Source: Mesonia sp. | Lineage (GTDB): Bacteria; Bacteroidota; Bacteroidia; Flavobacteriales; Flavobacteriaceae | Direction of reading: 5' to 3' | NCBI GenBank assembly: GCA_012964435.1 | Contig: DTTX01000041.1 | Span: forward strand, 43,695-101,259 | Length of the DNA: 57,565 nt | Shown here: positions 22,955-26,812 of the stretch, piece after piece | Layout of the letters: each line of letters opens with the position of its first letter | Numbering within the stretch: the first letter of the stretch is position 1 | Translations under genes and position numbers: made by a program | Notes under the pieces: model-generated | The model's database searches: none | What the model was told of the DNA's origin: nothing | Seen by the model: only the letters and a program-made list of their open reading frames with translations

Positions 22955-23650
22955 TTATTTTTTAGGATTGCCAATTGTTTTTTCCATCGGTTCTGTTTCC
23001 ATATTTGCGGCATCATCGATGGTCATTTCTGTAATAAAATCTTCTTTTGGCGTACGTACTTTTTTCATATTCACCAGCCAATCGTTTTCATTTTCACGAT
23101 AACCTAAAGGCAATAACAATGTACTTTTATAACCGGAACCTTCTAATTTTAAAAGTTCATCTAATTTTTCAGGTAAAAAACCTTCCATAGGTGTGGCATC
23201 AACTTTTTGCTCTGCAGCAGCAGCAATTGCCATTGAAAATGCAATGTAACTTTGTTTAGAGGCGTGATGTGCGTGCCACTCTTCACTCAATTGAGAATAC
23301 ATTCCCCAAAGGTTACTTTTATAATCATCCATCGTGCTGTGAGGCAGATCACGCTCATCCATAGTGTAATTAAATACTTCTGTGATGCGCTCTTCGGTAT
23401 ATTTATCCCAAGCAGCAAAAACTAATAAATGTGAACAATCGATCACTTGGTTTTGGTTCCACGCTAGATCTTTGATCTTAGTTAGCAAAGCTTCATCAGA
23501 GATCACGATAATTTTATAAGGCTGTAAACCCGATGAAGAAGGCGCTAAACGAGCCGCTTCTAAAATGTAATCTAATTTATCTTGCGGCACTTTTTTGCCG
23601 TTCATTTTTTTGGTAGCGTAGCGCCACTGTAAATCATTAAGTAAACTCAT
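22955..23650 (-). CDS. NAD(P)H-dependent oxidoreductase of the nitroreductase family (NfsB-like)
   Basis: A 231-residue FMN flavoprotein. The N-terminus LNDLQWRYATKKMNGKKVPQDKLDYILEAARLAPSSSGLQPYKIIVISD is the classical NfsB segment that binds FMN, and the C-terminal LLLPLGYRENENDWLVNMKKVR completes the fold. Family members reduce nitroaromatics and quinones by two electrons. ATG at 23650 was chosen; an adjacent ATG at 23653 and one at 23671 are possible, but the last lies inside the -10 box TAACTTTG. It is divergent from an HxlR-type regulator that probably controls it. Confidence 0.92.
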   Translation of the reverse strand: MSLLNDLQWRYATKKMNGKKVPQDKLDYILEAARLAPSSSGLQPYKIIVISDEALLTKIKDLAWNQNQVIDCSHLLVFAAWDKYTEERITEVFNYTMDERDLPHSTMDDYKSNLWGMYSQLSEEWHAHHASKQSYIAFSMAIAAAAEQKVDATPMEGFLPEKLDELLKLEGSGYKSTLLLPLGYRENENDWLVNMKKVRTPKEDFITEMTIDDAANMETEPMEKTIGNPKK

Positions 23651-23669
23651 CATTAAAAAATTTTTATAC

Positions 23670-23705
23670 AAAGTTAAGGAGTACTACTTTAGTTGAGTAA
23701 CTTTG
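23670..23705. promoter_or_regulatory. Divergent promoters with palindromic operator between nitroreductase and HxlR genes
   Basis: Two identical -10 boxes face outward: CAAAGTTA at 23670-23677 (minus-strand TAACTTTG, towards the nitroreductase) and TAACTTTG at 23698-23705 (towards the regulator). Between them, overlapping the plus-strand -10 box, is the dyad TACTACTTTAGTTGAGTA (23682-23699), a TACT-N10-AGTA palindrome. A dimer bound there would block both promoters. The form resembles operators reported for the DUF24/HxlR repressor YodB, from memory. Confidence 0.7.
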
Positions 23706-23746
23706 TGACAAAAAGTAATAGTGACATTCGAGTAACCACGATATTT

Positions 23747-24106
23747 ATGGAAGCAATAGAAAAAAAATCAGCGTTAATCACTTGTTCAGAAAAAATTAGA
23801 GCCATACACGACACGATGGATGTGTTAAGCGGTAAATGGAAAGTCTCTATTATTGCCTGTTTATGCTTCCAACCCATGCGTTATTCTGAAATCTTAAGAG
23901 AAGTGGAAGGAATATCGGGTAAAATGCTAAGTCGTGAATTAAAAGATCTAGAGATGAATAACCTTATTCACCGTAAAGTATTAGACACGAAACCGGTTAG
24001 CGTGAGTTATGAAATTTCTGACTACGGAAGATCTCTAAAAGAGCTTACCAATGTCATTGCCGATTGGGGAATAAATCACCGAAAAGAAATGATCAAAGAG
24101 TTTTAG
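23747..24106 (+). CDS. HxlR (DUF24/MarR-like) transcriptional regulator
   Basis: A 119-residue winged-helix regulator. An N-terminal cysteine (Cys13 in LITCSEKIRAIHDTMDVLSGKWKVSII) sits at the redox-sensing position conserved in HxlR/YodB proteins. The recognition region MRYSEILREVEGISGKMLSRELKDLEMNNLIHRK is typical. It likely represses itself and the divergent nitroreductase until quinones or other electrophiles modify the cysteine. A longer frame from TTG 23693 exists, but the -10 box lies inside it, so ATG 23747 is the start. Its 3' end overlaps the convergent membrane-protein gene by 14 bases. Confidence 0.92.
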   Translation: MEAIEKKSALITCSEKIRAIHDTMDVLSGKWKVSIIACLCFQPMRYSEILREVEGISGKMLSRELKDLEMNNLIHRKVLDTKPVSVSYEISDYGRSLKELTNVIADWGINHRKEMIKEF

Positions 24107-25275: not shown

Positions 25276-25983
25276 TTAAAGATATGACAAACTATAATTA
25301 CACAAAAGTGCCACAATAATGGCGAGCCCAAAACTGAGCAACGTACCTATGAGAATGTACTCGGTAAGCTTGCGGTCTTTAGATTCGGTGAGGTCGCTAA
25401 ATCTAAATATAGACTTGGCGGCAATTAGAAAACCAACACCTTCCCAATGCTGCGACGCAATAAAAACAAATACGAGTAAACGTTCTAAGATCCCGATATA
25501 TTTTCCGGCGTTTTCGAGCGATTCGTCTTTTTCGATCTCGGTATTGGGTTTGTAAATAGAAATTAGGGTTTTAATCATAATCGATGCCGGCGTGGTCAAA
25601 AAGAAGGCTCCGGTAAGGTAACACAGCAAAATAGGCGAGAGGTTAAAGTGAATATTCTCCCGCTCGATTAAAAAATACAATCCGAAAATTATACTGAAAT
25701 GAAATATCTGGTCGAGAAAAAATAGTAAACGTCGATTTTTTTCATTTTGAAAACTAAGCTTCCAAGCGTCGATGGCCAAATGAGTAATGGCAATAATTAA
25801 TGGAATGTACCAAAGTTTTAAATTCCATAGGAAAAGAAAATTCAACAATAAATGAATCCCTACGTGAAAATAGAGCTTATTCGAAGCTAATTTTTTACTT
25901 TCTTTTTCTTTTACCCAAGAATAAGGTTGCAACAGAAAATCGCCCACCAAATGCGCTAAAATAAGTTGAATTAATAGCATCAT
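25276..25983 (-). CDS. DUF3307 integral membrane protein
   Basis: A 235-residue protein with about six transmembrane helices. The family hallmark LILAHLVGDFLLQPYSW is at the N-terminus, followed by FHVGIHLLLNF and IIAITHLAIDAWKL; these repeated His/Asp positions in membrane segments suggest a metal or proton site. The function is unknown. Its ATG overlaps the satD stop by 4 bases (ATGA-type coupling), so the two are made from one mRNA and probably work together. This pairing of SatD and DUF3307 recurs in Bacteroidota as far as I recall. Confidence 0.88.
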   Translation of the reverse strand: MMLLIQLILAHLVGDFLLQPYSWVKEKESKKLASNKLYFHVGIHLLLNFLFLWNLKLWYIPLIIAITHLAIDAWKLSFQNEKNRRLLFFLDQIFHFSIIFGLYFLIERENIHFNLSPILLCYLTGAFFLTTPASIMIKTLISIYKPNTEIEKDESLENAGKYIGILERLLVFVFIASQHWEGVGFLIAAKSIFRFSDLTESKDRKLTEYILIGTLLSFGLAIIVALLCNYSLSYL

Positions 25984-26594
25984 AATATCGACTTTATTTT
26001 CTGTTGAAAGATTTTATTGAAATCGGTTAACTGACTCAATCCTGCACGTTTTTGGCGTTCACTCACCGTGTTTTGTTTAATGCCGATTAATTCTCCCAAT
26101 TGTTGCTGATTCATTTCCGGATTTTCTAAACTCAATTTAACAATTTCAGCAGAATTTGGCGTCCAATGATCCATAGTTAAAAGTGCCAATTGAAAATATA
26201 CATTCAGTTCTTGGTCGAGTTTTAAGTTTCCGGTATTGATGAGTAGATTGGTTTTTTCACGTTTCAATTTTTCAAACACTTCGCCAGATCTAATAAAAGC
26301 ACTTCCGTTAGCTTCAGAAATTGTTGCTGCATCATAGCTTTTTTCACCTAAACCTATCGCCATTCTGGCATCGAGTTCTTTCATTGTTTTTAAAGCGGCT
26401 TTGATGTACACACATTGCCAAAAAACTTCTAACGGTGATTTTATTTCTACCTGAAAACTATCGCCTCTAAAAATTTCCCAATCTTTTTGCTCTTTACCCA
26501 AAACTTGAAGCGTCGCACGCATCTGTTCTAGGTAAGCTTCGGGCAAGTTGACCGATTGAGAATTAATAATATCTCCTGTAATTACACTTGTCAT
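25980..26594 (-). CDS. satD: SatD family protein with C-terminal helix-turn-helix
   Basis: A 204-residue protein. The SatD domain opens MTSVITGDIINSQSV and continues IFRGDSFQVEI, MAIGLGEKSYDAATISEANGSAFIRSGEVFEKL, a pattern recalling nucleotide-cyclase or small-ligand folds. The C-terminus holds a helix-turn-helix (about 155-187: NPEMNQQQLGELIGIKQNTVSERQKRAG). SatD was named from an acid-tolerance locus in streptococci; the molecular role is unknown. A sensor/regulator using the HTH on the palindrome array that ends 9 bases upstream is my inference. It is cotranscribed with the DUF3307 gene. Confidence 0.85.
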   Translation of the reverse strand: MTSVITGDIINSQSVNLPEAYLEQMRATLQVLGKEQKDWEIFRGDSFQVEIKSPLEVFWQCVYIKAALKTMKELDARMAIGLGEKSYDAATISEANGSAFIRSGEVFEKLKREKTNLLINTGNLKLDQELNVYFQLALLTMDHWTPNSAEIVKLSLENPEMNQQQLGELIGIKQNTVSERQKRAGLSQLTDFNKIFQQKIKSIL

Positions 26595-26602
26595 ACTTCA
26601 AA

Positions 26603-26714
26603 TATCGTTTAAAAACACGATAAATGCAAATATCGTTTTAAAAAACGATAATACGATTTATCGTTTCTAAAGGTGATAGCACCAAATATCGTTCAAAAAG
26701 GCGATAATTTAGCC
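26603..26714. repeat. Four-unit 28-bp palindrome array (predicted SatD operator)
   Basis: Four tandem units start at 26603, 26631, 26659 and 26687, exactly 28 bp apart. Each is a 20-bp dyad TATCGT-N8-ACGATA followed by an 8-bp variable spacer. Units 1 and 2 are perfect in both 6-bp arms (unit 2: TATCGTTTTAAAAAACGATA); the right arm is GTGATA in unit 3 and GCGATA in unit 4. The half-sites therefore recur every 14 bp in alternating orientation, eight in a row. On the minus strand ACGATATTTG, close to the TAnnTTTG -10, is embedded at three unit edges, so binding would occlude satD promoters. It may also act on cydA, 125 bases away on the other side. Confidence 0.85.
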
Positions 26715-26804: not shown

Positions 26805-26812
26805 TAAATTTG
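26805..26812 (+). promoter_or_regulatory. -10 box of the cydAB operon
   Basis: TAAATTTG matches TAnnTTTG, 26 bases before the cydA ATG at 26839. No TTG element is obvious, which would fit activator dependence. Confidence 0.55.

Follow-up and report, generated by a model that had tools for sequence, protein, structure and literature searches.

A self-directed operator ladder is very probably a family-wide feature of satD, which encodes a predicted cyclase-like transcription factor

The satD locus in the Mesonia window

The window considered here is the whole stretch of 57,565 nt that was analysed, from a Mesonia sp. draft genome (assembly GCA_012964435.1, contig DTTX01000041.1, positions 43,695 to 101,259). 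On its reverse strand it carries satD (25980..26594), encoding a protein of 204 residues in which a cyclase/GGDEF-like palm is predicted for approximately residues 1–120 and is joined to a C-terminal helix-turn-helix. The satD stop is overlapped by the gene for a DUF3307 membrane protein of 235 residues (25276..25983, reverse strand), presumed to belong to the same operon. Among named organisms, Mesonia mobilis DSM 19841 has the closest SatD (99% identity). Elsewhere in the window, at 22955–24106, genes for a nitroreductase and an HxlR-family regulator are arranged divergently, as redox-responsive pairs usually are.

Upstream of satD lies a run of regularly spaced palindromes. A preliminary description, made from the sequence alone, had reported four dyads in an exactly periodic array, and direct reading together with a pattern search bears this out: 20-bp dyads start at 26603, 26631, 26659 and 26687, each exactly 28 bp beyond the previous one, so that the array spans 26603–26706 and comprises eight half-sites. 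The consensus given for them, TATCGT-N8-ACGATA, is followed without mismatch by the two dyads nearest satD, dyad 1 (26603..26622, TATCGT-TTAAAAAC-ACGATA) and dyad 2 (26631..26650, TATCGT-TTTAAAAA-ACGATA), but with two mismatches by dyad 3 (26659..26678, TATCGT-TTCTAAAG-GTGATA) and with one by dyad 4 (26687..26706, TATCGT-TCAAAAAG-GCGATA), the farthest from satD; none of them is assigned a strand. The 8-bp spacers had been called non-repeated, and their sequences do differ, yet TTAAAAAC, TTTAAAAA, TTCTAAAG and TCAAAAAG have a common character (T, then A-rich). The gap between the array and the satD start, put at 9 bases in the preliminary description, is 8 bases (26595–26602), the ATG being at 26592–26594. 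As for the half-sites occurring every 14 bp, this is partly a matter of definition, since any palindrome repeated every 28 bp has second dyad axes midway; the 14-bp ladder nevertheless gains meaning from the position of the recognised 6-mer, the centre of which lies between both axes. With up to two mismatches allowed, TATCGT-N8-ACGATA has 9 matches in the window against a mean of 2.35 (largest 6) in 100 shuffles. The core of four half-sites reaches the maximum score of 36, which none of 100 shuffles attained with period and spacing left free (best shuffle 30), and the ladder of six half-sites is the top of 410 window tiles, scoring 80 against 51 for the runner-up.

The protein encoded next to this array passes the SatD family model PF16264 (31.6 bits, cut-off 29), the match covering both the palm and the helix-turn-helix, and 18 of 21 aligned SatD members match the model at E up to 1; a six-frame genome search with PF16264 at E 0.001 did not report the window's own satD. 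The helix-turn-helix (residues 146–184, encoded at 26043..26159, reverse strand) consists of predicted helices at 146–157, 163–170 and 174–184, with block means of pLDDT above 90, and the C-terminal region matches Sigma70_r4 at 1.8e-4 with 21.4 bits, under that model's cut-off of 24.1. A structural model of SatD, folded with six relatives, has a pLDDT of 82 and a pTM of 0.81, with residues 11–50 at low confidence (block means 45–66). When this predicted model was compared with solved structures by Foldseek, the best match was 5d0g_A, the Ma1120 adenylyl cyclase (E 7.1e-4, probability 1.00, TM 0.40/0.49), which alone reached E 0.001 or better; cyclases follow at weaker E. Chains of Ma1120 head the order, followed by other cyclases and GGDEF proteins and, lower, by the Panoptes mCpol OptS, cUMP synthase and chains of type III CRISPR effectors. 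The N-terminal domain of SatD is thus predicted to fold like the palms of class III cyclases and GGDEF proteins. A profile search for a solved SatD structure found none, the best matches being HipB-type chains at E 0.04.

With class III cyclases, GGDEF proteins and mCpol, SatD shares the predicted fold and, putatively, two conserved aspartates, D8 (kept in 232 of the 235 SatD proteins compared) and D45 (233 of 235), whose equivalence to the metal-binding aspartates is judged from sequence position, D45 falling in the low-confidence stretch of the model. G83 is kept in all 235. SatD differs from class III cyclases in its fused helix-turn-helix and in that the Asn/Arg pair of cyclases is not evident by eye in our alignment of the family (A1). 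Nor do the Pfam cyclase models match the window SatD at E up to 1, and no cyclase profile is among the best 25 of 47 families for the 21 aligned members. A nucleotide may plausibly be a ligand or substrate of the palm. The DUF2652 proteins are a further cyclase-like set from bacteria, likewise uncharacterised, that came out of computational work; as described in PMC4886424, they form a different family from SatD and are single-domain proteins with one exception.

Arrays at satD loci and the recognition helix

Homologues of satD were collected in several overlapping sets: 34 matches in 60 near relatives, 37 of 198 genomes of the phylum by the Pfam model, and, with a profile built from alignment A1, 175 of 299 genomes of the family and 97 of 395 of the phylum, from whose listed matches 140 further places were fetched. 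Removing 17 loci with identical protein and identical last 60 nt upstream from the 252 with an A1-profile match left the 235 non-identical loci on which the following counts are based. Twenty-two weaker places from the phylum search, three genomes (G282, G048 and G018) and the broken gene of G012 were left out of the set, and eight loci (L043, L048, L051–L056) fall outside it, having no A1-profile match at 1e-5.

The 28-bp periodicity is conserved across the satD family. Within the 250 nt leading up to the start codon, direct repeats of 6-mers at a lag of 28 bp occur at 194 of the 235 loci (shuffle mean 12.2, largest 19), compared with 22 at lag 27 (13.8, 19), 56 at lag 29 (14.3, 18) and 11 at lag 30 (13.1, 16), and at the double lag of 56 bp they occur at 133 of 235. 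For inverted repeats, the start-to-start distance has its maxima at 14 (163 loci, shuffles 16.8) and at 42 (134 loci, shuffles 15.0). Taken locus by locus, a ladder of four or six half-sites at 14 bp beats all of 200 shuffles at 190 of 235 loci and a 28-bp ladder beats all of 100 shuffles at 192 of 235, whereas the same ladder test on 280 nt downstream as a control is positive at 3 of 234. Among the remaining 43 loci, a scan with period and spacing free found an array beating 20 of 20 shuffles in 32, where about two would be expected by chance; the pitch of these is 29 bp in 26, 28 bp in five and 30 bp in one. At 11 of the 235 loci neither the fixed nor the free-period test gave a significant array. 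The pitch of the array is therefore 28 bp, or 29 bp in some lineages. Five of the eight loci lacking an A1-profile match, scanned separately, also carry a 28- or 29-bp array that beats 40 of 40 shuffles.

Among the 212 loci whose core is strong, the commonest run is one of six half-sites (111 loci) and the longest is one of 20, the run lengths having no chance control. Between copies, the best-kept positions are the TATnnn and nnnATA arms (up to 0.73 identity), both spacers being at 0.31–0.54. The dyads that the preliminary description had proposed to look for upstream of other satD genes are present at most homologues examined. Since the inner bases vary with the protein, a search for the literal TATCGT-N8-ACGATA would overlook the majority of these dyads; TATCGT is the consensus half-site in 27 of 168 arrays. 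Arrays extend to distant plasmid and viral loci, including Pseudomonadota: five of nine such loci (L292, L296, L297, L266 and L267) carry clear arrays of 28–29 bp that beat 40 of 40 shuffles, two are marginal (L265 at 29 bp, with one of 40 shuffles as good, and L293 at 31 bp, with two of 40), and at L294 and L295 the array scan found none. On the viral contig L266, at approximately 2660–2880, at least six dyads of the type GGCCGG...TGGCC precede satD–DUF3307 with a pitch of 29 bp; no other of the nine has a run as long. In a genome of the window's own genus (G012:C5:2451-3049), satD is present as two overlapping pieces, one with an internal stop, and its array retains two dyads with two mismatches.

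The variation of the half-sites is informative as to the protein that reads them. Each half-site has the form TAT+XYZ (mirror ATA), in which TAT is common and the inner XYZ varies among lineages. Covariation was analysed in the 168 of 192 significant arrays whose consensus starts with TAT or ends with ATA, not both; in these XYZ is TAG in 34, CGT in 27, TCC in 17, TAC in 16, CTG in 13, CGG in 13, AAG in 10 and CAC in eight, with others making up the rest. Among SatD columns with less than 10% gaps, XYZ shares the most adjusted mutual information (n = 168) with 179 (0.62), 175 (0.39), 176 (0.38) and 173 (0.34), all within or just before the recognition helix (174–184 in the predicted model). 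In the window SatD the co-varying residues are N175, T176 and E179. The correspondence between residues 175, 176 and 179 and the inner bases is close to a code, with NT..E going with CGT in 18 of 19 cases, SN..E with CTG in 12 of 14, SS..E with CGG in 10 of 11 and AA..R with TAC in 10 of 10.

Shared ancestry alone is insufficient to explain this covariation, because it holds among pairs of loci whose N-terminal domains are less than 40% identical: such pairs have the same XYZ in 19 of 21 cases when residues 175, 176 and 179 all agree, in 37 of 84 when two agree, in 20 of 480 when one agrees and in 27 of 817 when none does. Since the three residues had first been picked by eye, the selection was redone in 20 random halves of the data, in which 179, 175 and 176 were selected in 20, 17 and 16 draws, respectively; added up over the 20 overlapping draws, 75 of 84 held-out pairs were in agreement. 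Random triples of variable columns, drawn 3000 times from outside residues 161–190, performed equally well in eight cases. For closer relatives, identical triples go with the same called XYZ in 76 of 96 pairs at 40–50% identity, 196 of 321 at 50–60%, 323 of 608 at 60–80% and 59 of 68 above 80%. These disagreements are explained in part by the SA..Q group (e.g. L023, L030 and L031), the arms of which are asymmetric, with TATTAG on one side and CTTATA on the other in an orientation that is constant across successive repeats. A tree-based sign test found two to three independent pairs on well-supported branches with almost none against, which is not significant, and the fewest changes required on a tree of the palm domain are 60 for XYZ and 52 for the helix triple. 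In the window's genus, locus L026 (genome G009) encodes a SatD with another recognition helix (QSNISEAFKRGG); its half-sites are TATCTG, which looks like a joint replacement of protein and operator.

Since XYZ changes with the recognition helix, also among far pairs, SatD is very probably the binder of the array. Arrays at most homologues and the covariation of helix and half-site together lend strong support to the earlier proposal that SatD binds the array through its C-terminal helix-turn-helix and controls its own gene, and a self-directed operator ladder on a cyclase-like transcription factor is very probably real and family-wide. The family would then offer a readable protein–DNA code, from three residues to three bases, and a natural experiment on DNA recognition evolving with its site.

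Proposed autorepression and the satD–DUF3307 pair

The consensus of the Bacteroidota -7 promoter box is TAnnTTTG. In the 150 nt that directly precede the start codon, 89 of the 168 arrays have a perfect box (23.6 expected) and 79 have none. In 71 of the 89 the last box falls at dyad phase 16–18, including 52 at phase 18, where the TA of the box is the end of a half-site. Given this register, a protein bound to the array should block the promoter, which argues for autorepression. The window has no perfect box in the 280 nt before satD; a near-box one base off the consensus, GATATTTG (26599..26606, reverse strand), overlaps dyad 1, and further copies of it at 26627–26634 and 26683–26690 make three in array register. 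The nearest of them would make transcription begin at the satD ATG or very close to it.

Autorepression is our best model, in which we infer repression rather than activation. Each TATCGT half-site would be held by the C-terminal helix-turn-helix of a SatD protomer, whose residues 175, 176 and 179 would read the inner bases CGT; the protomers would pair across each dyad and contact the next pair at the fixed 28-bp pitch. The resulting coat on the satD promoter would repress the satD–DUF3307 operon, and the palm with its conserved D8 and D45 would be the likely sensor, such that a nucleotide bound or made there may alter the pairing of protomers and release or tighten the coat. We put the probability that the array serves SatD as its operator, and that bound SatD coats the promoter and represses satD–DUF3307 with the cyclase-like palm as likely sensor, at roughly 0.85. 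A pitch that is exact to one base implies that adjacent dimers touch, and cooperative or filament-like binding of SatD, as had been suggested from the array's regularity, is a reasonable supposition given a spacing kept at 28 or 29 bp. With 10.5 bp to the turn, 28 bp corresponds to approximately 2.7 turns, so that successive dimers would wind around the DNA, three of them (84 bp) making up eight turns.

Arrayed operators are known from the heptad repeats of omega and the direct repeats of BldC. We propose here that satD is akin to the general class of autoregulated operator-array repressors, in which a DNA-binding protein coats regularly spaced sites on its own promoter. Compared with that class, the satD sites are alternating inverted half-sites with a dyad pitch of 28 or 29 bp, and SatD carries a cyclase-like palm and has half-site letters that drift with the recognition helix across a large family. 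SatD would thereby combine a cyclase-like palm with a transcription factor whose operator is strictly phased. The preliminary description had stated that no operator of this form was known for SatD, and we found none in the literature searched, which comprised mostly papers outside subscription. The window protein is a member of the SatD family PF16264, on which the papers found deal with acid tolerance and essentiality, a DNA target being absent from the portions of them that were available. In those portions, the sat genes of Streptococcus mutans are linked to acid tolerance (PMC11323703) and a Fusobacterium annotation paper assigns SatD to acid resistance (PMC10326533). The array would thus be the first candidate DNA target, and autorepression a testable function, for the widespread and little-studied SatD/DUF3307 pair.

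DUF3307 lies downstream of satD at 223 of 235 loci, as counted with a profile from our own alignment A3 (window proteins without the first Met). Its predicted model is of too low a quality for a structure search (pLDDT 61); no S-2TM-beta domain was recognised in DUF3307, and three DUF3307 relatives have no second Pfam domain other than a holin-like match below its cut-off. The Pycsar layout consists of two genes, for a palm-fold protein and a membrane protein. It is possible, and compatible with autoregulation, that satD–DUF3307 is likewise a two-gene system of nucleotide signal and restrained effector, in which the palm would make or sense a nucleotide, DUF3307 would be the membrane effector and the array would restrain the pair, although we hold this tentatively. 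The predicted palm fold with both aspartates and the membrane partner speak for such a system, as does the occurrence of the pair in plasmid cassettes (E. coli, Sphingomonas, Vibrio) and on three IMG/VR contigs. Against it, the window neighbours look like housekeeping genes and the surroundings on a Salinivibrio plasmid are ordinary, the three DUF3307 relatives are without a second Pfam domain above cut-off, and neither the window SatD nor DUF3307 has a PADLOC match, with one viral SatD giving weak PADLOC matches only (E 0.0075–0.022). Searches of PADLOC and NCBIfam gave no match over any cut-off, and a phage collection gave none for one viral SatD. SatD–DUF3307 resembles Panoptes (OptSE) in combining a palm-fold protein with a membrane protein, and differs from both Panoptes and Pycsar by the helix-turn-helix and own operator of SatD and by a DUF3307 without a recognised S-2TM-beta domain, the likeness being one of gene layout; SatD and DUF3307 do not appear in the accessible part of the Panoptes paper (PMC12657218). 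A DUF3307 protein is included in a table of a jumbo-phage genome, in the part of PMC8504454 that was available.

The plasmid contexts are single cases. On pEC34A (L292), a mobilizable E. coli plasmid of 3,770 bp, satD–DUF3307 is the main cargo, the other annotated genes being Rop, MobA and a small hypothetical one. Its SatD recurs at 94% identity or more in seven plasmid records from E. coli and Klebsiella; among E. coli genomes, none of 623 matching records covers 80% of the pEC34A-like query, and the 30 matches listed comprise only the first 132 nt, ahead of satD. A Sphingomonas insulae plasmid (L298:8947-16437) has satD–DUF3307 between a TIR-domain gene and an operon annotated as cyclase/E2-associated/Pycsar-effector, and on a Vibrio plasmid an Rpn nuclease gene is next to the pair, with a type I restriction subunit within 6 kb.

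According to the text seen of PMC11323703, in Streptococcus pyogenes satD is an accessory gene, present in 178 of 249 genomes, and is nevertheless essential. For this reason, more weight is given to readings in which SatD acts by restraint and in which the pair forms a two-gene system. Essentiality would fit a SatD that holds down a harmful partner, and such an autorepressor, if real, would explain how an accessory gene can be essential. A more specific and rather doubtful version would have satD–DUF3307 as a mobile nucleotide-signalling, perhaps anti-phage, pair in which SatD represses itself and restrains a harmful membrane partner: DNA-bound palms would pair along the ladder, making the operator also a scaffold on which cyclase-like active sites would be assembled or kept inactive, and loss of SatD from the DNA would free the partner. 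SatD–DUF3307 may in that case be a hidden nucleotide-signalling module.

Alternative roles of the array

It could also be that SatD binds the array and activates, or switches between repression and activation, the distal dyads recruiting polymerase. On the upstream side, arrays do continue well past the -7 box, six to eight half-sites being a common run and one array having 20 (run lengths for which there is no chance control), and 31 of 212 end 50–69 nt from the start codon. However, activators usually bind upstream of -33, and with the -7 box in array register in 71 of 89 cases the bound protein should hinder polymerase, which makes an activating role unlikely next to autorepression by SatD.

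That another regulator binds the array, for instance a local oxygen or redox one shared with cydAB, satD being merely its target, is very improbable. The array sits between satD and cydA at eight loci, all of the window's genus, and a link to cydAB had been raised in the preliminary description; that link is not supported, since a CydA-coding piece was found near satD at only those eight of 94 loci with 1.5-kb flanks, while arrays persist elsewhere. In the window cydA has its own likely -7 box, the perfect TAAATTTG (26805..26812, forward strand), about 100 bp beyond the array, which argues against the array as cydAB operator, and a role as such is disfavoured on both counts. The half-site moreover co-varies with the recognition helix of SatD in 168 arrays, far pairs included, as would not be expected if a different protein were the binder.

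The reading of the palindromes as RNA hairpins (an attenuator or stability element) or as a mobile or CRISPR-like repeat array is the least probable of all, since, even if each dyad could make a short hairpin and the arrays are regular, they overlap or precede the promoter box and RNA elements would not follow the recognition helix of a neighbouring protein.

Across 16 Mesonia genomes, two-dyad sites of the Mesonia-type half-site number four outside satD and four for a reversed-pattern control, an equality on account of which no wider regulon of this half-site is seen. In the window's draft genome (90.5% complete), a two-dyad pattern with up to three mismatches gave one site outside satD, in a prophage-like stretch, and this site (L274:1501-1548) is not claimed as part of a regulon, being at chance level across the genus. 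It lies on contig C56 (2131–2178) and consists of two SatD-type dyads 28 bp apart with two mismatches, at the start of an ORF of 106 residues whose neighbours resemble what we take to be Mu-type DUF3164 and GemA proteins, and it may hint at SatD action on a prophage promoter.
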